Shown here: positions 15,001 through 64,000 of the stretch, one piece after another
Layout of the letters: each line of letters opens with the position of its first letter
Numbering within the stretch: position 1 is the first letter of the stretch
Assembly: GCA_028753945.1 (NCBI GenBank)
Contig: JAPNXP010000014.1
Span: forward strand, 1-64,000
Reading direction: 5' to 3'
DNA from: Hexactinellida sp. DTS-2022
Taxonomy: Eukaryota > Porifera > Hexactinellida
Length of the DNA: 64,000 bases
Position numbers and translations under genes: made by a program
The notes under the pieces: generated by a model
The model's database searches: none
What the model was told of the DNA's origin: nothing
Seen by the model: the letters and a program-made list of their open reading frames with translations, nothing else

Positions 15001-18000
15001 TGAAAGGACTGGCTATCTTTATGTGATGTTTGGGATGTCTGGTGAAAAGTAAATCTCTTTTTAAAGTGACCTGGATTGTTTATTGTCAAACAGTCACCTT
15101 CTTAATGTACTATTATAGCATTCTTAAAATCTATCTTTGGTTGGTTAAAAATTGGCTGGGAACGAAGGGAGTGATAGAATTATTCTTTTTTATTGTCTTT
15201 GATGGGGTATAGTGAAAGGACTGGCTATCTTTATGTGATGTTTGGGATGTCTGGTGAAAAGTAAATCTCTTTTTAAAGTGACCTGGATTGTTTATTGTCA
15301 AACAGTCACCTTCTTAATGTACTATTATAGCATTCTTAAAATCTATCTTTGGTTGGTTAAAAATTGGCTGGGAACGAAGGGAGTGATAGAATTATTCTTT
15401 TTTATTGTCTTTGATGGGGTATAGTGAAAGGACTGGCTATCTTTATGTGATGTTTGGGATGTCTGGTGAAAAGTAAATCTCTTTTTAAAGTGACCTGGAT
15501 TGTTTATTGTCAAACAGTCACCTTCTTAATGTACTATTATAGCATTCTTAAAATCTATCTTTGGTTGGTTAAAAATTGGCTGGGAACGAAGGGAGTGATA
15601 GAATTATTCTTTTTTATTGTCTTTGATGGGGTATAGTGAAAGGACTGGCTATCTTTATGTGATGTTTGGGATGTCTGGTGAAAAGTAAATCTCTTTTTAA
15701 AGTGACCTGGATTGTTTATTGTCAAACAGTCACCTTCTTAATGTACTATTATAGCATTCTTAAAATCTATCTTTGGTTGGTTAAAAATTGGCTGGGAACG
15801 AAGGGAGTGATAGAATTATTCTTTTTTATTGTCTTTGATGGGGTATAGTGAAAGGACTGGCTATCTTTATGTGATGTTTGGGATGTCTGGTGAAAAGTAA
15901 ATCTCTTTTTAAAGTGACCTGGATTGTTTATTGTCAAACAGTCACCTTCTTAATGTACTATTATAGCATTCTTAAAATCTATCTTTGGTTGGTTAAAAAT
16001 TGGCTGGGAACGAAGGGAGTGATAGAATTATTCTTTTTTATTGTCTTTGATGGGGTATAGTGAAAGGACTGGCTATCTTTATGTGATGTTTGGGATGTCT
16101 GGTGAAAAGTAAATCTCTTTTTAAAGTGACCTGGATTGTTTATTGTCAAACAGTCACCTTCTTAATGTACTATTATAGCATTCTTAAAATCTATCTTTGG
16201 TTGGTTAAAAATTGGCTGGGAACGAAGGGAGTGATAGAATTATTCTTTTTTATTGTCTTTGATGGGGTATAGTGAAAGGACTGGCTATCTTTATGTGATG
16301 TTTGGGATGTCTGGTGAAAAGTAAATCTCTTTTTAAAGTGACCTGGATTGTTTATTGTCAAACAGTCACCTTCTTAATGTACTATTATAGCATTCTTAAA
16401 ATCTATCTTTGGTTGGTTAAAAATTGGCTGGGAACGAAGGGAGTGATAGAATTATTCTTTTTTATTGTCTTTGATGGGGTATAGTGAAAGGACTGGCTAT
16501 CTTTATGTGATGTTTGGGATGTCTGGTGAAAAGTAAATCTCTTTTTAAAGTGACCTGGATTGTTTATTGTCAAACAGTCACCTTCTTAATGTACTATTAT
16601 AGCATTCTTAAAATCTATCTTTGGTTGGTTAAAAATTGGCTGGGAACGAAGGGAGTGATAGAATTATTCTTTTTTATTGTCTTTGATGGGGTATAGTGAA
16701 AGGACTGGCTATCTTTATGTGATGTTTGGGATGTCTGGTGAAAAGTAAATCTCTTTTTAAAGTGACCTGGATTGTTTATTGTCAAACAGTCACCTTCTTA
16801 ATGTACTATTATAGCATTCTTAAAATCTATCTTTGGTTGGTTAAAAATTGGCTGGGAACGAAGGGAGTGATAGAATTATTCTTTTTTATTGTCTTTGATG
16901 GGGTATAGTGAAAGGACTGGCTATCTTTATGTGATGTTTGGGATGTCTGGTGAAAAGTAAATCTCTTTTTAAAGTGACCTGGATTGTTTATTGTCAAACA
17001 GTCACCTTCTTAATGTACTATTATAGCATTCTTAAAATCTATCTTTGGTTGGTTAAAAATTGGCTGGGAACGAAGGGAGTGATAGAATTATTCTTTTTTA
17101 TTGTCTTTGATGGGGTATAGTGAAAGGACTGGCTATCTTTATGTGATGTTTGGGATGTCTGGTGAAAAGTAAATCTCTTTTTAAAGTGACCTGGATTGTT
17201 TATTGTCAAACAGTCACCTTCTTAATGTACTATTATAGCATTCTTAAAATCTATCTTTGGTTGGTTAAAAATTGGCTGGGAACGAAGGGAGTGATAGAAT
17301 TATTCTTTTTTATTGTCTTTGATGGGGTATAGTGAAAGGACTGGCTATCTTTATGTGATGTTTGGGATGTCTGGTGAAAAGTAAATCTCTTTTTAAAGTG
17401 ACCTGGATTGTTTATTGTCAAACAGTCACCTTCTTAATGTACTATTATAGCATTCTTAAAATCTATCTTTGGTTGGTTAAAAATTGGCTGGGAACGAAGG
17501 GAGTGATAGAATTATTCTTTTTTATTGTCTTTGATGGGGTATAGTGAAAGGACTGGCTATCTTTATGTGATGTTTGGGATGTCTGGTGAAAAGTAAATCT
17601 CTTTTTAAAGTGACCTGGATTGTTTATTGTCAAACAGTCACCTTCTTAATGTACTATTATAGCATTCTTAAAATCTATCTTTGGTTGGTTAAAAATTGGC
17701 TGGGAACGAAGGGAGTGATAGAATTATTCTTTTTTATTGTCTTTGATGGGGTATAGTGAAAGGACTGGCTATCTTTATGTGATGTTTGGGATGTCTGGTG
17801 AAAAGTAAATCTCTTTTTAAAGTGACCTGGATTGTTTATTGTCAAACAGTCACCTTCTTAATGTACTATTATAGCATTCTTAAAATCTATCTTTGGTTGG
17901 TTAAAAATTGGCTGGGAACGAAGGGAGTGATAGAATTATTCTTTTTTATTGTCTTTGATGGGGTATAGTGAAAGGACTGGCTATCTTTATGTGATGTTTG

Positions 18001-18316
18001 GGATGTCTGGTGAAAAGTAAATCTCTTTTTAAAGTGACCTGGATTGTTTATTGTCAAACAGTCACCTTCTTAATGTACTATTATAGCATTCTTAAAATCT
18101 ATCTTTGGTTGGTTAAAAATTGGCTGGGAACGAAGGGAGTGATAGAATTATTCTTTTTTATTGTCTTTGATGGGGTATAGTGAAAGGACTGGCTATCTTT
18201 ATGTGATGTTTGGGATGTCTGGTGAAAAGCATATCTCTTTTCGAAGCGAGCTGGATGATTTATTGTCAAAGATTCACCTTCCAAATGAACTAGTATAGCA
18301 TTCTTAAAATCTATTT
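1..18316. repeat. 212-bp satellite array, about 86 tandem copies
   Basis: A 212-bp unit repeats head to tail from the left edge. From about 5.0 to 18.2 kb some 62 consecutive units look identical. The first roughly 23 units differ mainly by one-base insertions or deletions, many in homopolymer runs, and the units at about 4.49-4.96 kb are more damaged. The last unit (about 18230-18316) is diverged by substitutions and ends where unique DNA begins. Each unit holds a small hairpin-like motif in which GTGAC pairs with GTCAC around TGTTT/AAACA. A 60-codon open frame recurs in each unit but starts with TTG and resembles nothing, so I do not call it a gene. A centromeric, pericentromeric or subtelomeric satellite is likely, but nothing in the window decides which. 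Confidence 0.97.
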
Positions 18317-18705
18317 TTTTATAGTGGGTGTCCCTGTCCCATAATTGCTACATTTCCATGAGCCAGTGGGTGTCCGGACAACCAGTCCACCCCCGATAGC
18401 GCCGCCCTGTAATCAGAACCTATATAAATTTGATAATTTCGCTATAAATTGTGACGAAATTCCCACCAAATTTTGTTTACGTCAGTGGCGCAAGGTGGTA
18501 TATTTCCTAAATTTTTTGGAATTTCGGGATGAAAATTTCTGTGAATATACCCCATCTATAGAGCATGCGGAATATGCAATAATATTCATTTAATCAATGT
18601 TCTGGTCCTCCGTCCTGAAGGTGTGCGTCGAGCCATAATTGTCTAATTCTCACATTGTGTATTATACTATTCCCCTATTTGTTTGAAATTAGTTTGGCTA
18701 CCGCA
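18317..18705. other. Gap between satellite and first gene
   Basis: Unique sequence with no supported gene. An 82-codon plus-strand frame (18345-18593) has no recognisable domain. A TATA-like stretch lies near 18420, too far from the start codon at 18706 to be called a promoter unless there is a 5' untranslated exon. Confidence 0.5.
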
Positions 18706-21700
18706 ATGAGTAAGCGCATGCATATAATTGAGTTGAAGGAGTTGCACAAGAAGAGCCCCGGTGACTTTATATCATCCGGGGACTTCTGCTGGCACCACAA
18801 CTCGAGCACCCGTCTCGGCAAGGGCGCATTTGGAGAGGTGTTCCTCGGGTACCACGACCAGGATTCCTTCCAGGTAGCTGTGAAGATTGTGAAGGAAGAC
18901 TTTTATACCAAGGAGCGAAAGGTTTTTATCAACCTGAAGCGGGAAATTAAAATAATGGAGGTAGGCCCTACTGTTTGTGTGCATTCTGTTTACAGTTTGT
19001 GTGTTAGGAGCTGGTGCAGTGCGAGTTCGTGGTTCGCCTGCTGCAGGTGGAGGAGCAGAAGGGACTAGGGATGATACTCGTTATGGAAATATGCGACTGC
19101 GACCTGGAAGACTTTCTCAAAAAGAACCAAATAACTGAGCCCCAGTTCCGAAGGTTTCTGAAGCAGCTCAGCATCGGCGTCCACGCGATGCACAATCTGA
19201 GCATCGTGCACCGCGACCTGAAACCTCAGAACATCCTGCTCAAGTTCCCGGGCGCCGACCGGCGGGCCCGCGGACCGGACGCCTCCCCGGAGTGGGACAT
19301 CCGGCTGGCGGACTTCGGGTACTCGCGCTTCTATAAGGAGCAGCTCGAGGGGGAGGTGAGCAACAAGAACATCGACATGGAGTCTCTGGCGGGCACGCCG
19401 GTGTTCATGGCCCCCGAGGCGCTCTACTGCGTGATGTACCCCGGGGGGAGCTACGACCACACCGTGGACATCTGGTCCGTGGGGGCCCTGCTCTACCGCG
19501 TGCTGGTCGGGAAGTGCGGCTTCTTCGCGCCCATTCAGGACATCCTCAGCATTCTGCAGAAGAAGGGTACGTTGATATAGTGTGCTATGGAGTGAGTTAC
19601 GGGATATGTGCCTATAGGAGACGCGATAGCCTTCACGCGGGCCTCGCGCAAGACGACGTACATCCGGGAGCTCCCGCCGGACGTGGACGACATTCTGACG
19701 CCGGTCTTCAAGGACAAGATGACGTGGCTGATAAAGGAGTGCCTCCGAGTTGAGGCCGCGGCGCGGATTGGCTACGACACTTTCTATCAAGTCAGTGCTT
19801 AGTGGGTAACTTATGCGTGTGTTGACCAATCGGATTAGGTTGTGGACGACCTTGTGCAGACCAAGATCCAGCTTGTGTCGGTGCACTCGGGCCTCGAGAG
19901 CAAAGTGGCCTACGGAGACAAGCCGCTGCTTATAGCGGAGCTGAAGCGACAGATAGCGGCAGACTTCGGCATAGCGGCGGAGAGCCAGGTCATACTGAGG
20001 GACACCTCTCTGCCCGAGGCAACCATTGCCAGTCAGACAGCGCTAGACGTGAGTACGGACCATGGATTGTAATGAGGTAGCATGTTATGGGCATGCCCTC
20101 TATTTTAGGCTTTCGTGAGCTTCTCGCGGTCCCAGCAGTTCGGGGGGTCGGGGAGGGACCCTAAGCTGTTCCTGTTGGACCAGTCGGTCCTCTCGCGCAT
20201 GGACCCGCCCCCCCTGCAGCTGCTGGCCTACCAGGACCTCTCAGAGTTCCTGAAAACCCCCGAGCGCATCGAGGAGGTGCGCACCCGCGACAACGCGCAC
20301 CACGTGCCGCACCTCTGCTCTAAGCTCCTTAAGGACATAGAGCTCACCGCCGAGTCGCAGGTGGCCGGCATGAGTGCCTATGCGCAGTACGCGTTAGGCG
20401 CACGGGAGCGCCACAAGGCGCTGCGCGTCCGCTTTAACGAGGAGTTCTCCCCGCTGCGCGCTAGGCTCGGCTCCCTGGGGGCGGAGCTACGCTGCTACGG
20501 CCCCGCGCTGGGCGGCAGCGGGTACCTGCCAGAGGCGGACTCATTCCGGGAGCTGGCCGGCGAGGCGGATGCGGTGCGGGAGTTCCTCGAGGAGGCGGCG
20601 GCAGAAATAGACGCGGATGTTCTGAGACGCCACGCGGCGCTCGTGTCGGACGCGGAGCGGGCCCCCGGCCTCTCCGTGCGCGAGCTGGTCAGGTAAGCCG
20701 GCTGTATACAGCCTGCATTCCTAACATTCCAATGTACCCAGGCCGTTGCAGTCGGAGTGCCGCGGAATGAAGCGACTGCCGGTGTCGGAACAGCTGTTGC
20801 GCGTGGCGGCGCTGAGAAAAAGCGTGGAGAACCGACACATGGACCTGAACGCGCAGATCCACTACAGACTGAATGCCAGCTGCGCCACGCTCCGCCAGTT
20901 CGAGGCGTCCCAGCAGGCGCTGCTAGCCCTAAGCAGGGAGATAAAGGTAGCCAATCAGATGTCTGCATAGTGTTTATGTTTTGGTAGGAGACTCACGCGG
21001 CTAAAGTGGAGGCGATTAGCGGGAAACTGCGCGGGACTCTCCTCTTGGTTATACAGACGCCTCAGACACCGGTCGGGCCGACAACCGGTACCGGGCCGGA
21101 CTCGCCGGAGCAGAACCGGCGCCGGGAGCTGCGGGTCGCGGAGCTGGAGAGAGAGAGGAGTCAGCTGATCGAGAGCACCGCCAGACTGAAGCGCGATAAC
21201 GAGCAGCTGATTGGTCAGCTGGAGAAGGAGCGCGAGGGCAAGCCGATGATGGAAACTATTCTCGTCTCCGCTAACGAAAAGGTACATTCCTATTGCCACT
21301 CCCGTTGCCAGGTATTACAGTATGCTAGATCGCGGAGTGCGGGGCCTGGCTGGACTGGCTGAAGGGCGCCCTGGGCGTGGCGGACGCGCCGGCTGAGGCA
21401 CCCCGCTCCTTAGAGGAGTTCCGGACTGGGGAGTGGGACCCGAGCCTGGGCGCCGTCTGTCGGGAGCTCTCGCAGAGCCTGCAGCGGTGTCCGACCGGCG
21501 CCCTGGAGCGCATGCGCACCGAGGTGGGCCGCAAGCTGGCGGGGGACGGACATAAGGACCCCATGTGCGCCCGCTTCAACGTGGCGGACTTCCACAAGGG
21601 CGACTACGTGCTGTTCCTGCCCACCAAGCCCATGGGCCCCTATAAGAGCGTCCCCAAGGCGTTCTGCATTGACAACAAGCAGTACTTCCTCAGTCGCGAC

Positions 21701-22095
21701 TGCTACGAGGCCTTCAAACTCAGGGAGGACCAATCCCTCTCCACCTGGCTCCTAGGTACGTAGTTCCTATTGGAACCAACTAGTGTACGTAGTTCCTATT
21801 GGACCTAACTCTCTGTTTACTTACTGTACGTAGTTCCTATTGGAACTGACTGTTACTTTTGGTAGTTCCTATTGGAACAAACTATGTTGTTGACCTAGTT
21901 CCTATTGGAACTAATTATTGTATGTAGTTCCAATTGGAACTAACTCTGTTTACTACTGTAGGCCAGGCTACGGAGGACCCGGTTAAAGAGACCGCGCGGC
22001 ACGTGTGTCAGTACCCGGCCGGACGGACAGGAACAGAGTTCTACACAATGCGCGCAAACTTTTATTTCGCGCCGGCCTCTAAGCCGTCAGTGTAA
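18706..22095 (+). CDS. ULK/RB1CC1: ULK/ATG1 kinase fused to ATG11/FIP200 scaffold
   Basis: Nine exons: 18706-18960, 19008-19566, 19618-19790, 19839-20048, 20109-20692, 20742-20946, 20988-21281, 21329-21755, 21962-22095. They give 946 residues with every junction in frame. Residues about 25-329 are a ULK/ATG1-type kinase: glycine loop GKGAFGEV, VAVK lysine about 60, HRDLKPQNILL with catalytic Asp about 155, an insert, ADFG about 186-189, APE about 220-222. Residues 330-415 look like the ubiquitin-like domain that opens FIP200, followed by an ATG17/FIP200-like helical region and a coiled coil (about 690-760). Residues 842-946 are the ATG11/FIP200 claw: GDYVLFLPT, a YFLS segment, WLLGQ and GTEFY. 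In other animals ULK binds FIP200 through ATG13 and its C-terminal MIT (EAT) domains; no such MIT region lies between kinase and scaffold here. TBK1 also has kinase-ULD-coiled coil, but the claw and the ULK-type kinase argue against it. The start is the first in-frame ATG. Confidence 0.9.
21756..21961 (+). repeat. Degenerate tandem repeat filling last intron of the kinase-scaffold gene
   Basis: At 206 bp this intron is four times longer than its neighbours. It consists of repeated copies of a motif around GTAGTTCCTATTGGAAC. At least three copies begin with GTACGTAG, the same bases as the donor site used, so potential donors are duplicated. Confidence 0.85.
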
Positions 22096-22218: not shown

Positions 22219-25200
22219 ATGGCAGAGTACAGACAGTCGCCGCCCCCCACCGACCCGGCCAGGGCCCGGTCCCTCTCGCCGCCCGGCATCCGGTTGGAGC
22301 GCAAGAAGCCGCAGCCGCTGCTCCTGTCGCCGCAGCGCGCAGAACCGGTCTCCACGCCCTCGCCGGTCCTGACGCCCCTCGGACCAGGGACGGAGGAGCT
22401 GGACACCATTTGGGAGCCGAGCGGCTCGCTGGCCTTGGCAGACCCGGACCTGAGTCCGCTCAGTCCGCACCACCTGGAGCAGGTAGGCCTACACAGCGAC
22501 GCTATTGGTAGATAGGAATGCGATACTCTGAGTAGATTAGCGTAGTAGTAGTGTGACTATCATGGAATGTGATATCGAATTAGAGGAGTATTGAATTCTA
22601 ATTTGATTGGTTGGTAGATTAGAAATTAGAAATTTAATATTTATGATTCGTAAGCGAATAATTATTTCTGATTAGTGTTGATGGAAACTAAATGCTTTCT
22701 TTTCAAAAGAAAAGTTGCGCGCAACCATTATGGAAACCTTTGAATATTTATTAACCACTAATGCGCTATGAATCCTACGCAGGGTTATAACAATGCTTTC
22801 CAGTGGAACCGCAGGCCAGTAGCATTGACTTATCCATGGTAGATCCTGGAGCGGCTGCTGGATCAGAAGGAGCGCCTCCAGGAGCAGCTGACGGAGCGGG
22901 AGGACTCCCTTAGGGACTCCCAGCTGTGTCTGAGTGTGTGCGCGCGGGAGCGGGACCTGCTCACTGCGCAGCTGAGTCAGCTGACGCCCCAGCTGACGAG
23001 CGGACAGCTGGAGGAGCTGGAGGGGATCCGCACCTGTCCCGAGTCGGACCTGCTCGAGATCTGTCCGCTCGCGCGCCGCTTCTGGGACGAGTTCCTACGT
23101 CTGCGCGGGGACCTGGAGCAGCAAAGGGACATCGTGGCCGAGCGCGACGAGGAGGTGCGCAGTCTGCTGGCTGAGCGCGCCAACACGCGCATCCTATTGG
23201 AGCACCTGGAGCGACTGGTGGCGCGCCACGAGCGCAGTCTCCGCTCGACCGTCGTTAAGCGGCAGACCGCCCAGAACGGGGTGTCTTCAGAGGTAAGACT
23301 GACCAATCAGAGGCTCGCTTTACGCTGCGCTAGGTGGAGGTGCTCAAGGCGCTCAAGTGTCTCTTCGACCACCACAAAACCCTCGACAGAGTCAAGGACA
23401 AACTCAAGCTGCAGGTGGCGCGCAACAAGGAGCTCGAGGATCAGCTGACGGACGCGCATGCGCAGCGGGAGCTCTCCCAGCTGGCGCCCCGGGCCCGCGA
23501 CAGTCTCGGTCAGCTGTTGGAGCGGGAGCGGGAGATTGAGTCGCTGAGATTCGAACTGGAGGAGACGCGCGCGGTTAGCGAGTCGCACCTGGAGCAGACC
23601 GGCCAACAGCTGGAGGATGTCAGGTAGGTACCCTATATCCTATAGCGCATTCCTAACAGCCTGCCTGTTGCTAGGGAGCAGTGCCGCATCGAGCGGGAGC
23701 GGCGCGAGGAGGCGGGGCGGAAACTGAAAGACATCTATTCTCTTCTGACCAATAAGGAGCGCGCCATAGACCGACTCGAGAAACAGCTGTGCAAGTGCCA
23801 GCTGGCCCTCACAGACCTGACGCAGGAAGCCAATCAGAAGTGTCTCGACCTGCAGCGACAGCTCAGCGAGAGAGACCAGCTGCTAACGCCAACCAATCAG
23901 CTGCTAGAACCAACCAATCAGCTGTTCGAGCCAACCAATCAGCTGCTAGCCCCAACCAATCAGCTGTTAGCACCAACCAATCAGCTGCTAGCACCAACCA
24001 ATCAGCTGCTAGCCCCAACCAATCAGCTGTTAGCGCCAACCAATCAGCTTCTAGCGCCAACCAATCAGCTTCTAGCGCCCGGTAATCAGCTGTTAGCCTC
24101 CGGAAATCAGCTGTTATCACCAACCAATCAGCTGCTGGCGCCCGGGGATCAGCTGTTGCTGCTGGAGCGCGTGGAGGCGCAGGCGCTGGAGCTGCTGGCG
24201 CTGCGCGATCAGCTGACTGAGCGTACGCGCTCCGAGGAGCAGATGCACACAAAGGTGCAGCAGACCGTCGGGAAGCTCTCGCAGGTGCAGCGCGAGAAGA
24301 TGGACCTGGAACAGCTGTTACACGAGACGCTGCCGGCCGGCGGCGACAAGCGCGGGTCGCGGCGCTCCAAGAAGCAGCAGCGCCAGAGCATGCACGCCAT
24401 CATCACAGAGATTAACCGCATGTCCGACCCCAACCTGGTCGTGCATTCCAGTCTGCCAGCGCGGGAGCTACGGAGGCCTAGCGACACGCGGGTGCGCGTG
24501 TACAGTCCGGAGCACACGCCCTCCTCCAGCCGGAAGGGGTCCCCCTCCGACCCGGATCCCGACCCGGCGAGCAAGCAGTCCCCCACCGAGTCGGACCTGG
24601 GCGCGGGCCGCACGCCGCTCCGCGGGTCCCACTCCTCCCTCTCGGACATAGACACCCTCACCACCGTCTCCGACACCTCACACATTGTCGACGAGTCCGT
24701 AAACGAGCGCACCGAGTTTGACCCGGGCGCGCCCAAGCTGAGCATCCCGCGCTCGCGCAAGAAGACTCTCAAGCGGAAGTCTTCGCTCCGCCGAATCGTG
24801 CACTCCTTTCGGGGCGCCCGTCCGCCGACGCCGCTGAGCCCGCCGGGCCCGGTTCTCCTCCCGGAGGCGGCGGACACGCGGCGCTGTCGCCTGGAGGCCG
24901 CGCTCGCGGGGATGGAGCGGCGCAACACGCAGTTCCTGCTCTGGGGCCCGGAGGAGCTGCAGGCGTGGGTCGAGACGGAGCTCGGCCTCCCGGAGGGGGT
25001 CGGAGAGGCGGTCCGCTGGCAGTGCCGCACGGTGCCGCTCCTCCTATCGATGGGGGACCGCGACTACGAACTCGAGTTAGGCATTCAGGAGCCGCTGCTG
25101 CGCCTGAAACTCATGAAGGCGGTGCAGGAGCGAGTGGCGCTCTCCAAGGCGAGCACGCCGTGTCTCTACTCGCCCTACCGCGGCGTCAACCACGAGTGGA

Positions 25201-36291: not shown

Positions 36292-37518
36292 CCTGGGTTT
36301 AGAGAGGACACTAATTCCTCGAATCTTGACACGTCCAGGTCTGCCAGTTCGTCTGCGCGGGAGAAAGTATCCATAGTGTCTCTCAGACTGGAGAGCGGAA
36401 CAGCTGATTCCCCAAAGGCGCCATTTCCGCCTACGTCACTCTCCATACGCTGCACCTCCATCAGAGATCTAAAAATGTAAAATTACAGCTGTGCCGACAG
36501 CATTTCAATACTGACCCAAAACGTAGTAGTTGCATAATAAAAATAGATTATAACTCCAGTCAGCTGATTCCTGTAGGTACCGGTTATAAGAACATTCCGG
36601 TTATAAGAACATTCCGGTTATAAGAACATTCCGGTTATAAGAACATTCCGGTTATAAGAACACCGGTTATAAGAAGATACCGGTTATAAGAACATTCGAC
36701 TGGAAAACGGTTGCCATACCCTGTATAATTTATGTCGGTTATACGAACATTAATGCAGGCCCCTACGATGTTCTTATAACCGGTATCCACTGTACCTGTA
36801 GAAAGCAGTGAATGATTGGTTGAGCTGGTTGGGGGTGTCGGGGGGACAGAGAGGGGGCACAAACGGACCCCAGGGGGCGGGGAACTGGAAGTAGGGGTCC
36901 GGCTCTTGCGTGAGAGGGGCGACAGGAAGATTCTATAAATAGAACAGTCAGCTGATGCAGTAATTAGCTCCGGTACTCACAAACTCCTTCTTTTTCGGAG
37001 ATTTTGTATTTCTCTTGGACAGCTCCAAAACTTTATGATCCACTTCCCAGTAGGCTCCCTAACAACAGCAAGGTTACTTAGGTATTTACACATTATAGAC
37101 ATACCTTGCCGGTCTCGCCCTTTGGTCTGGCGACTCTCAGAAAGAGTTTGTTTAGCGACAGGTTGTGTCGAATGGAATTCTTCCATCCAGAGTTTGTCGT
37201 TTTGAAGTAGGGATAAGTTTCTATCACAAAACTGTAGATCTCATTGAGAGTCATACGTTGATTGGCCGACTGCTTTATAGCCGTAACTATGATCTTGGCG
37301 TAGGAATGCGAGGGTTTGCCAGGGGACAGGGGGGCCGGGGGCGGGGCCGAGGGGTCCGGTTTAATCGGAGGGGGCGGGGTTGTTTTTGGGCGGGATTTCA
37401 AACGGGAACAGTGGAGACAACTGCCGCAGTAGTGAGTCTGCTTTTTGATTGGCTGCTTGTCTGGCGAGAAGCTGACTAGCCAATCGATGTTAGTCAAACT
37501 TCTGTCGAGTTTTGACAT
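35988..37518 (-). CDS. FOXJ2: FoxJ2/3 forkhead transcription factor
   Basis: Five exons: 37518-37105, 37058-36981, 36932-36796, 36468-36293, 36184-35988; 333 residues. The N-terminus has LDRSLTNIDWL, the short motif that opens vertebrate FOXJ2/FOXJ3. The forkhead domain spans about 67-160, with MTLNEIYSFV, SGWKNSIRHNLSLNK (recognition helix) and GKGAYWEVD across the first intron. A C-terminal acidic-aromatic segment (about 270-295) resembles the FOXJ2 activation region. It is shorter than vertebrate FOXJ2 (over 550 residues), mostly by loss of glutamine- and proline-rich tails. Its last intron is almost entirely GTT repeats. The E4-E2 gene follows 151 bp downstream on the same strand. Confidence 0.9.
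36185..36292 (-). repeat. Intron made almost entirely of GTT repeats
   Basis: On the coding strand this 108-bp intron begins GTTGTTG, runs through GTT/GGT/GAT triplets, and ends in TTTCTTAG. The donor is therefore simply the first unit of the microsatellite. Read on the other strand it is a CAA tract. Confidence 0.85.
36575..36800. mobile_element. Palindromic MITE-like element (CCGGTTATAAGAAC family)
   Basis: Tandem and inverted copies of CCGGTTATAAGAACATT in the third FoxJ2/3 intron. Related copies are at about 33240-33345, 50675-50845, 53085-53297 and 58157-58285. Better-preserved copies begin CAGTGGATACCGG and end near ATCTACTG next to TA, as expected of a non-autonomous pogo/Tigger-like family. 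No transposase is visible. Confidence 0.75.
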
Positions 37519-38573
37519 GATTTGGCCAATCAGATTCCAGCTAAAGCTAATTCCTAAATCACAATAATGCAACCTTATCTCAAACGGGATTCTAACAATA
37601 CTAATACAGATATAAGTTGTTAATTCAAATCCATTAATGATGAAAAAGCAAAATTCAATAAGTTTGCTGCAAATGCTAATACGATATTTGCAGTGAGTTC
37701 TTGAGGTCAGAAATAGGGCGTATCTAGTGAACTATGCAATAAAGTTAGAATGCAAATGCTGTGGTATTATCAGAACAGCTGATCAGTGATAATCAGCTGA
37801 TTCTTTGTTCGGAATCACATGCGAGAGATTAGCTCACTGAAGGAACAATGGGTGTATTCAACCAATCAGATAGCAGTTAGAAAACATTTGCAATTGACTA
37901 ACCAATCAGAAAAGAGACAACATAATGCAGTTGACAAATCAGATTTCAAATTGCAATGCAAGTTTGTTGCAAACTATATTAGATTCTGGATACAAATGTT
38001 GCAAAAAACAACAAAAATACATCAAAAACAGCTCAAGCTTGCATCTCTTAATCAATCATTCAATTTGCACTGGGCTCAATCCCTCTGTTCTCCCGTTAGT
38101 AAACAAAAACAGAATTTAATTAAAGTGTCACATTTCTGACTTCCAAAACTATAAATCGGTGCCCAAGCCATGTACAAGAATAGGCATAATCCAATTAGCA
38201 ATCAGATTCCCTGCATTGTCACTCACACCTCGCAGATGAATGCTTTAGAAGCCGCCTGCCCTGAATGGCATCGCCATATGGCAGAAGCCAGCACACAATG
38301 CGCCAGTGGCACAAAGCGAGGAAGTTGTGTTGACAAACAAATAAATTTAGAATCCCAGTGAGTAGAAGCAGGCTTCGCCACATGCGCCGCTGCTAAGCGA
38401 GAGAGCTGGCTTCTCGCCTGCGAGCTGAGATCATTAGGACACACGGCTTCCCAAACAAAGAATATATATATGCTCTCCGCTGGAACAACCAACTCGTTTT
38501 TAGAGCAAGCTTTTGAATACTTTTTACATTTCAAACACAATATTAATTGGAACTAACACCTTTTTAGTGTCAC
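37519..38573. other. Gap between divergent FoxJ2/3 and CPEB1
   Basis: About 1 kb of AT-rich sequence with no supported gene; the open frames here lack domains. It contains several CCAATCAG words (37533, 37860, 37902) and CAGCTG/TCAGCTGA motifs. The right end has a TATA-like run near 38462. FoxJ2/3 and CPEB1 diverge from this gap, so it probably holds both promoters. Confidence 0.6.
38462..38472 (+). promoter_or_regulatory. Probable TATA box for CPEB1
   Basis: ATATATATATG about 105 bp before the CPEB1 ATG and inside a moderately GC-rich stretch. A TTTTTAG just before the ATG could be the acceptor of a 5' untranslated intron. Confidence 0.4.
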
Positions 38574-39941
38574 ATGGAGGCGCCCAACTACCTGTGTTCC
38601 CCCTTCGGGTCCTACCTGCCCCCCGAGCCCCCCCTCCTCTCCCGTCCGGACTACGCGCCCCCTTCAGACTCGACAGCTGGGAAACAGCTGATCGACATGA
38701 CGCAGCTCTTGAGCGAGATGAGTCTAGTGCCGCCCCTTACAGGTGTGAACCCCGACACCTCCGATAAAGAGGACCCGGACCCCCCCGCCCCCCTGCCCCC
38801 CCAAGAGTCCCTAATATCGGACATTATAAACCCGCCCCTCGACTGGCTAAGCCCCTCCCAGCCCGAGACGCGCTTCTGGCCCCCCGAGCCCCCCCAGCCC
38901 TCCTCGCCGGGCCCCGGGGCCCTGTTCCTCTCCTCCATTCACCAGAGCTTCGAGATGGCTCAGCTCAGGAACCCCAGCCCGACCCCTCACCGGGCCCCCT
39001 ACCCCTCCCCACAGGCCCCCTACCCCCCCCTGGTGCCCAACAACTTCTACCAACCAGACAAAACAAATCCCTTCTTCCCGCGGCACAAGGCACAGCCGCT
39101 TGACCCGAAGGAGTACCTAAAACTCCCAGAGGTGATATGTACCTGGTCGGGCCAGCTGCCCCCCCGGCGCTACCGGAACCCCGTCTACAGCACCAAAGTA
39201 TTCCTGGGAGGGGTCCCATGGGACATCACAGAGGAGACGCTCCTAAACACCTTCAAACCATTCGGGAACCTCAAGGTCGAGTGGCCCGGCAAGGACAGTA
39301 AGCACAACCGGCACCCCCCCAAGGGGTACTCCTACCTAATATTCGATTCTGAGAAGAGCGCCAAACTGCTCTTGGGGGCGTGTACGCAGGACGCGTCAGA
39401 GGGGGGCGACTACTACTACAAGGTGTCCTCATCGCGCATGCGCAATAAGGAGGTGCAGGTGATCCCGTGGGTCCTATCTGACTCTAACTCTGTGTATCGG
39501 GCCAGTCCCCGTTTGGACCCCAACACCACCGTGTTCGTAGGGGGGCTGCACGGGCTGCTGAATGCAGACGCTTTGGCGCTCATTATGGATGACCTGTTTG
39601 GGGGCGTGGTGTACACCGGTATCGACACGGACCGGCATAAATACCCGATTGGGTCCGGTAGAGTCACGTTTGTGAGCGCAAAGAATTATATGAAGGCGGT
39701 GCAAGCGGGCTACGTCGAGATTAAAACCTCGAAATTCGCGAAAAAGGTGCAAGTGGACCCCTACCTCGAGGACACACCCTGCAACATCTGCGGTCGCATG
39801 ATGGGTCCGTTTTTCTGCCGCGATATGAATTGCTTCAAATATTTTTGTCGCCTTTGCTGGGAATGGCACCACTCAATCGATGGGTTTCGACTCCACAAAC
39901 CACTTATGCGCACCACCAAAAACCAGTCTGCTTGTGAGTAA
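38574..39941 (+). CDS. CPEB1: CPEB1 (Orb-type) cytoplasmic polyadenylation factor, intronless
   Basis: A single 455-residue open frame. RRM1 begins at about 208 ([12 protein letters not shown]) and RRM2 at about 318 (TVFVGGLHG), with the family-specific GIDTD[13 protein letters not shown]. The C-terminal ZZ zinc-binding domain spans about 403-445 ([15 protein letters not shown]...[12 protein letters not shown]). CPEB1 binds U-rich elements in 3' untranslated regions and controls poly(A) length and translation in germ cells and synapses. The first 190 residues are proline-rich and low complexity, as in other CPEBs. The coding region has no intron, unlike its neighbours. The stop overlaps a perfect donor consensus (GTGAGT), but the family ends at this point, so I take the stop as real. 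Confidence 0.96.

Positions 39942-48946: not shown

Positions 48947-64000
<15,054 letters not shown>

Follow-up and report, generated by a model that had tools for sequence, protein, structure and literature searches.

In humans, the two autophagy machines that are linked at the locus described here are separate proteins. Parts of both in one gene are what an evolutionary tie between the two would predict. TBK1 possesses an adaptor-binding tail, and its clustering is thought to let the kinase domains activate one another. TBK1, IKK-epsilon and IKK-beta are not known to carry a claw. On the other side, FIP200 (RB1CC1) ends at residue 1594 and has no kinase domain, and the C-terminal MIT domain of ULK1 pairs with ATG13, as described in the 2025 ULK1C structure paper (PMC12440827). 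The study by Shi et al. (PMC7337493) presents FIP200 as an ATG13-binding, C-shaped dimer, finds the scaffolds of FIP200NTD and TBK1 similar, and reports an NPIF motif common to both proteins. The shared FIP200–TBK1 fold is confirmed in the 2025 paper. Kinship between TBK1 and FIP200 is already published in these two sources (PMC7337493, PMC12440827), where it is argued from likeness of structure and from one short motif common to both.

A gene that joins both sides in one chain lies in the 64,000-nucleotide stretch of DNA analysed here (the window). An initial sequence-only reading described it as a single nine-exon gene running in frame from a ULK-type kinase to a FIP200-type claw. Exon joining and translation bear this out, with one frame of 946 codons plus the stop and all eight introns of GT-AG type, 41–206 bp in size; intron 3 has the length and phase first claimed for it. 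The features are collected in Table 1.

Table 1. Features of the composite gene; positions are those of the window.
Feature	Position	Strand	Basis or remark
Coding region, kinase-ULD-helical-claw, 946 aa + stop	18706..22095	+	Single frame, GT-AG introns
Exon 1, start codon to kinase N-lobe	18706..18960	+	
Exon 2, kinase core with HRD, DFG and APE	19008..19566	+	
Exon 3, end of kinase C-lobe	19618..19790	+	
Insert GDAIAFTRASRKTTYIRELP ahead of the last kinase helices	19618..19676	+	Kinase alignment; position common to 5/5 TBK1/IKK, missing in 4 ULK
Intron 3, 48 bp, phase 0, separating kinase from ULD	19791..19838	+	
Exon 4, probable ubiquitin-like domain (ULD), first part	19839..20048	+	Without in-frame ATG
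Exon 5, ULD end with DPKLF (NPIF-like), then helical region	20109..20692	+	
Exon 6, helical region	20742..20946	+	Helical nature judged by eye
Exon 7, heptad-like stretch at about 21120-21251	20988..21281	+	Coiled coil assigned by visual inspection
Exon 8, linker and first claw part; claw from about 21566	21329..21755	+	
Exon 9, claw end, GTEFY, stop	21962..22095	+	

An exon model could in principle have falsely joined an adjacent ULK kinase gene and a small FIP200 gene. Retention of intron 3 would indeed bring a stop at the fourth codon past the junction and thus a kinase-only protein ending in FYQVSA, which may exist as an isoform. However, the gap between the two parts is only 48 bp, and there is no in-frame ATG from the junction to residue 430, the first methionine past it. 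As this methionine stands at the ULD end, a second protein with its own ULD start is impossible. A further argument comes from the other copies of the gene described below, one of which (L030) is a single intronless ORF, while two others (L031 and C8) cross from kinase to ULD inside a single exon. On these features mis-joining is rejected as hardly credible.

The locus is not an isolated oddity. A search of the 112.4 Mb of its genome (18 contigs) with the window protein gave three more loci, with 48 of 171 candidates scored, so that the family has at least four members, all from this one genome. The L030 copy (C6, 5.00 Mb) is one unbroken ORF of 777 aa from first ATG to stop, which contains the kinase, a segment at the ULD position, the helical part and the claw. 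The L031 copy (C11, 12.97 Mb, minus strand) has six exons and encodes 907 aa. The C8 copy has ten exons and 954 aa; its claw exon lies about 99 kb downstream of the remainder, across a satellite-rich gap, and this join is the least certain among the four gene models. The one-frame architecture from kinase to claw is thus present in four copies.

These copies are well diverged. Their kinase domains are 43–53% identical to that of the window copy and form one clade (support 99.3/100) in a maximum-likelihood tree of 23 kinases and 246 columns, with long branches that suggest old duplications. Identity in the ULD drops to 6–21%, and none of the 22 intron positions of the three spliced copies fall in matching alignment columns, the middle of the alignment being poor. 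In all six copy pairs, third codon positions are the least alike, both in the kinase (26–44% identical, versus 49–77% at first and second positions) and in the claw (20–36% versus 41–59%); the top third-position value, 44%, belongs to the pair of GC3-rich copies. This pattern reflects protein-level selection, and kinase and claw ends are constrained at the protein level in all four copies. A pseudogene is ruled out by the four open frames, the conserved catalytic residues and this codon-position pattern.

The kinase is ULK-like, as first read. Residues 34–326 of the window protein score 162.7 bits with Pfam Pkinase. Among solved structures, ULK2 (E 1.9e-32) and ULK1 come closest to them, and the top non-ULK match is STK33 (82.6 bits). 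A profile of the four copies ranks ULK2 (191.8 bits), ULK1 (190), ULK3 (152.4) and STK33 (134) in the same database, and TBK1 is not among the best 60 of its 960 matches. K60, E80, D155, N160, D187 and E222 are invariant in the four copies; judging from these residues, the domain is apparently active. The absence of MIT domains noted at first was also found by Pfam, where PF12063 and PF21127 match none of the four copies at E<=1, with the caution that a separate ULK-like protein of this genome (L034) itself gets just a weak match to MIT2 (PF21127, 12.5 bits) and none to PF12063.

How this kinase relates to the TBK1/IKK family is less straightforward. The protein might be a TBK1/IKK-family kinase proper that has gained or kept a claw, its ULK-like score being due to slow evolution at shared sites; it would then act as TBK1 does, the claw standing in for the adaptor-binding tail. 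We consider this unlikely, though several features speak for it. In profile–profile comparisons, which give a rough ranking because the sets differ in depth, the IKK set comes second with 325, ahead of two sets of other kinases from this genome (310 and 293), but the ULK set is higher at 364; lone ULK3, at 277.8, scores lower than the other kinase sets. The profile built from TBK1, IKK-epsilon, IKK-beta and the two IKK-like ORFs that this genome has at L051 represents five IKKs, and its alignment to the family runs continuously from the kinase into the ULD, with window residues 27–430 on TBK1 7–390. Ahead of the last kinase helices stands an insert (DAIAFTRASRKTTYIRELP in the window copy, DIVVSEDLNGTVKFSSSLP in IKK-beta) which is present in all five TBK1/IKK sequences and missing from each of the four ULK sequences in the alignment. 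At the same place, two kinases that by eye look CDK-like have an insert of their own, so the IKK-type insert is suggestive only. A kinase joined straight to a ULD is a TBK1/IKK trait that the family displays. The kinase tree does not place the family and accepts both a grouping with ULK1/2 (AU 0.348) and one with IKK/TBK1 (AU 0.542). Against an IKK origin, the family kinases are 32–36% identical to ULK1 versus 23–26% to TBK1, and the solved-structure search is headed by ULK proteins, as given above. The presence of a claw, together with a kinase that scores nearer to ULK, speaks against a plain TBK1 or IKK.

The FIP200-like ubiquitin fold proposed for the region after the kinase exons, 617 aa long in the window protein, is only partly upheld. 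With the window copy leading, hhalign scores the post-kinase region 29.4 against human FIP200 (probability 5.7%), which none of 100 column shuffles reach (mean 15.1, maximum 23.4; reversed FIP200, 16.0). Against the IKK profile the score is 49.0 (probability 81%), again reached by 0/100 column shuffles (mean 12.5, maximum 18.0). In this window-led comparison the ULD is both IKK-like and FIP200-like. The values fall to 38.1 for the IKK profile and 20.5 for FIP200 when the C8 copy leads, the latter under the window-led shuffle maximum. Single human sequences compared with residue 334 onward give another order, with FIP200 at 29.6, ubiquitin at 20.2 and TBK1 at 19.0, which indicates that the lead of the IKK set comes partly from its depth. 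The window-led FIP200 alignment begins at FIP200 residue 2, past the kinase end, and DPKLF is the counterpart of the NPIF motif in the window copy. In pairwise comparisons, the window ULD beats 495/500 shuffles for FIP200, 498/500 for IKK-beta and 412/500 for TBK1.

Other searches with this region gave little. No match to Pfam TBK1_ULD was found in any copy at E<=1, nor in the two IKK-like ORFs of the genome at E<=0.001. The ULD-helical profile yields 355 weak matches to solved structures (E<=10), the best being a caveolae protein (E 0.021), and TBK1, IKK and FIP200 are not among the best 60 of them; the 617 post-kinase residues of the window protein alone give no match at E<=10. By the profile alignments, the segment following the kinase is a probable ubiquitin-like domain.

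At the C-terminal end, the assignment to a FIP200-type claw is supported. All eight distinct solved-structure matches to the four-copy claw profile (E<=10) are RB1CC1/FIP200, the best at E 9.7e-4. Pfam ATG11 gives 21.8 bits on the whole window protein, 0.2 below the 22-bit cut-off, and three places above cut-off in a genome search, the window among them at 23.1 bits. Three of the four copies match it in a protein scan (E<=1), L030 giving none; the L030 claw is recovered by a C8 claw query (E 0.019).

In the human claw, mutation of R1573, F1574 or R1584 nearly abolishes p62 binding, according to PMC6477179. In the order window, L030, L031 and C8, the counterparts are Q/Y/N/F for R1573, Y/C/Y/Y for F1574, and T/gap/T/L or gap for R1584; the placement of loop residues is uncertain. 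K1569 corresponds to R in the window copy alone. F1529 is kept in three copies and replaced by Y in the fourth, and F1582 is kept in all four in one alignment, with a gap in two copies in the other. Because R1573 and R1584 are not kept, the partners are probably other than the phosphorylated motifs bound by FIP200, or are bound in another way. The claw would recruit the protein to cargo, though, as these arginines are not conserved, not necessarily through the receptors of FIP200 itself.

The same genome was searched for separate autophagy and IKK genes. The ULK-like ORF L034 (842 aa stop to stop) groups with ULK1/2 (support 97.9/99), which gives the genome a ULK-like gene besides the fusion. 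An ATG13 gene is found at L037 (34.5 bits, cut-off 25), along with an ATG101 gene (69.3 bits); the idea that the fusion makes ATG13 unnecessary thus finds no sign in its favour. Two IKK-like ORFs stand in tandem (L051). A free-standing RB1CC1 claw was not found: the C8 claw query gave four places at E<=10, all inside the fusions, and human FIP200 gave one match (C10, E 0.235) and missed all four fusions. Nor was a clear TBK1 found among the 61 of 207 candidates scored, the top match to human TBK1 being an IKK-like ORF (94 bits). A TBK1_ULD search of the genome gave eight places below cut-off (best E 8.5e-4), none in the fusions, and PF04108 gave three matches, all below cut-off. A PF12063 search of the genome gave no match, and neither did its control. 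A Hox-type homeodomain query, run without a positive control, gave none at E<=1e-10; the source is more likely a non-bilaterian animal. The negatives for a claw gene and for TBK1 are weak, as the search runs exon by exon and its human FIP200 query did not reach the fusions.

These results bear on a further possibility, a lineage-specific fusion of ULK with its own FIP200, apart from the origin of TBK1/IKK, any likeness to TBK1 being convergence; this is the initial reading carried over to four copies. The ULK-like kinase, the FIP200-type claw, the confinement of claw matches to the fusions and the higher score of the post-kinase part with single human FIP200 all fit such a late event. Yet the junction and the insert are TBK1-like, a separate ULK-like gene, ATG13 and ATG101 remain in the genome, and the long branches suggest old duplications; we hold this scenario to be distinctly improbable. 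The original description of a ULK fused to its own scaffold stands as far as the ULK-like kinase and the FIP200-type claw are concerned, but it has not been distinguished from a claw-bearing kinase of TBK1/IKK type.

The reading we favour, with slightly better than even confidence, is that the genome encodes four or more composite autophagy kinases of one family. In each, a ULK-like kinase leads directly into a ULD and helical scaffold of FIP200/TBK1 type, and the chain ends with a FIP200-type claw. By analogy with the known systems, such a protein is expected to be a dimeric scaffolded kinase, recruited by its claw to cargo and activated by crowding. The middle region would fold as a ULD plus scaffold and dimerise, and the claw would dock at cargo on receptors or adaptors. 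Clustering there might let the kinase domains activate each other, as is thought for TBK1, after which the kinase would phosphorylate receptors and autophagy factors at the cargo. Four diverged claws would suit different partners. As to origin, a single old fusion between a ULK-type kinase and a FIP200-like protein is favoured, of the kind from which TBK1/IKK may also have come upon loss of the claw. A more specific proposal, possible but rather doubtful, is that the four genes preserve an intermediate stage through which TBK1/IKK arose, with a ULK-type kinase placed before a FIP200-like protein and the claw, later lost in TBK1/IKK, still kept. In this genome, where a free-standing FIP200 claw and a clear TBK1 both went undetected, the composites may then do the work of both.

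No description of a kinase–claw fusion was found among the best-ranked titles and abstract openings of the literature searched, and relatives outside this genome may be known or even common. A single chain that unites kinase, ULD, scaffold and claw would open the link between TBK1 and FIP200 to tests at the sequence level. The family also offers a natural case of a kinase covalently joined to a cargo-binding claw, which bears on the origin of the TBK1/IKK signalling kinases and on whether a kinase placed at the claw suffices to start selective autophagy.

Compared with the systems described so far, the family looks like the chimera discussed by Shi et al. (PMC7337493), with the claw still attached. 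It resembles TBK1, IKK-epsilon and IKK-beta in the succession of kinase, ULD and helical scaffold, in the similar insert and in the collinear profile alignment into the ULD, but differs from them by its claw and by a kinase sequence nearer to ULK. With FIP200/Atg11 it shares the C-terminal claw and, more weakly, a ULD likeness with an NPIF-like motif; unlike FIP200, it has a kinase, a chain of 617 aa past the kinase exons, and a claw pocket whose arginines are not kept. ULK1/ULK2 (Atg1) provide the closest kinase domain by profile, whereas in the family a ULD and a claw are in place and MIT domains are not detected.

The three spliced copies of the fusion family (the window gene, L031 and the copy on contig C8) share none of 22 intron positions when compared by alignment column, the middle region being one that aligns poorly. 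Across these three genes and L030, the single-ORF member devoid of introns, the GC content at third codon positions ranges from 0.39 to 0.83. The longest intron of the window gene, intron 8, is made up of repeats of about 29-32 bp centred on TAGTTCCTATTGGAACTA. Along what appears to be its final intron, the C8 copy repeatedly carries a satellite-like array.

The right end of the 212-bp tandem array, detected by a repeat scan of a stretch starting at 16000, lies about 390 bp upstream of the window gene, and this array may continue leftward beyond position 16000. The adjoining SAM-domain gene, which looks like a liprin-alpha, contains an internal coding minisatellite encoding an NQLLAPT repeat. 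The four other genes of the window listed below fit an animal genome.

Features of the window, of contig C8 and of locus L051
Feature	Position	Details
212-bp tandem array	16000-18318	~10.9 copies, 99% matches
Intron 8, window gene	21756-21961	
21-bp minisatellite	23877-24142	~12.7 copies
Forkhead gene	37096-37731	
CPEB gene	38568-39938	RRM + ZZ
Glycogen synthase gene	52147-53007	
SNF2-type helicase gene	57575-58150	
Satellite-like array	C8 2668000-2765000 (L041-L050, L033)	step roughly 154 bp
IKK-like kinase ORF, first	L051 186-2291	701 aa stop to stop
IKK-like kinase ORF, second	L051 3798-6086	762 aa stop to stop

Elsewhere in the same genome, locus L051 carries a tandem pair of IKK-like kinase ORFs, both of which cluster with human IKK-beta in the kinase tree (support 97.9/99).
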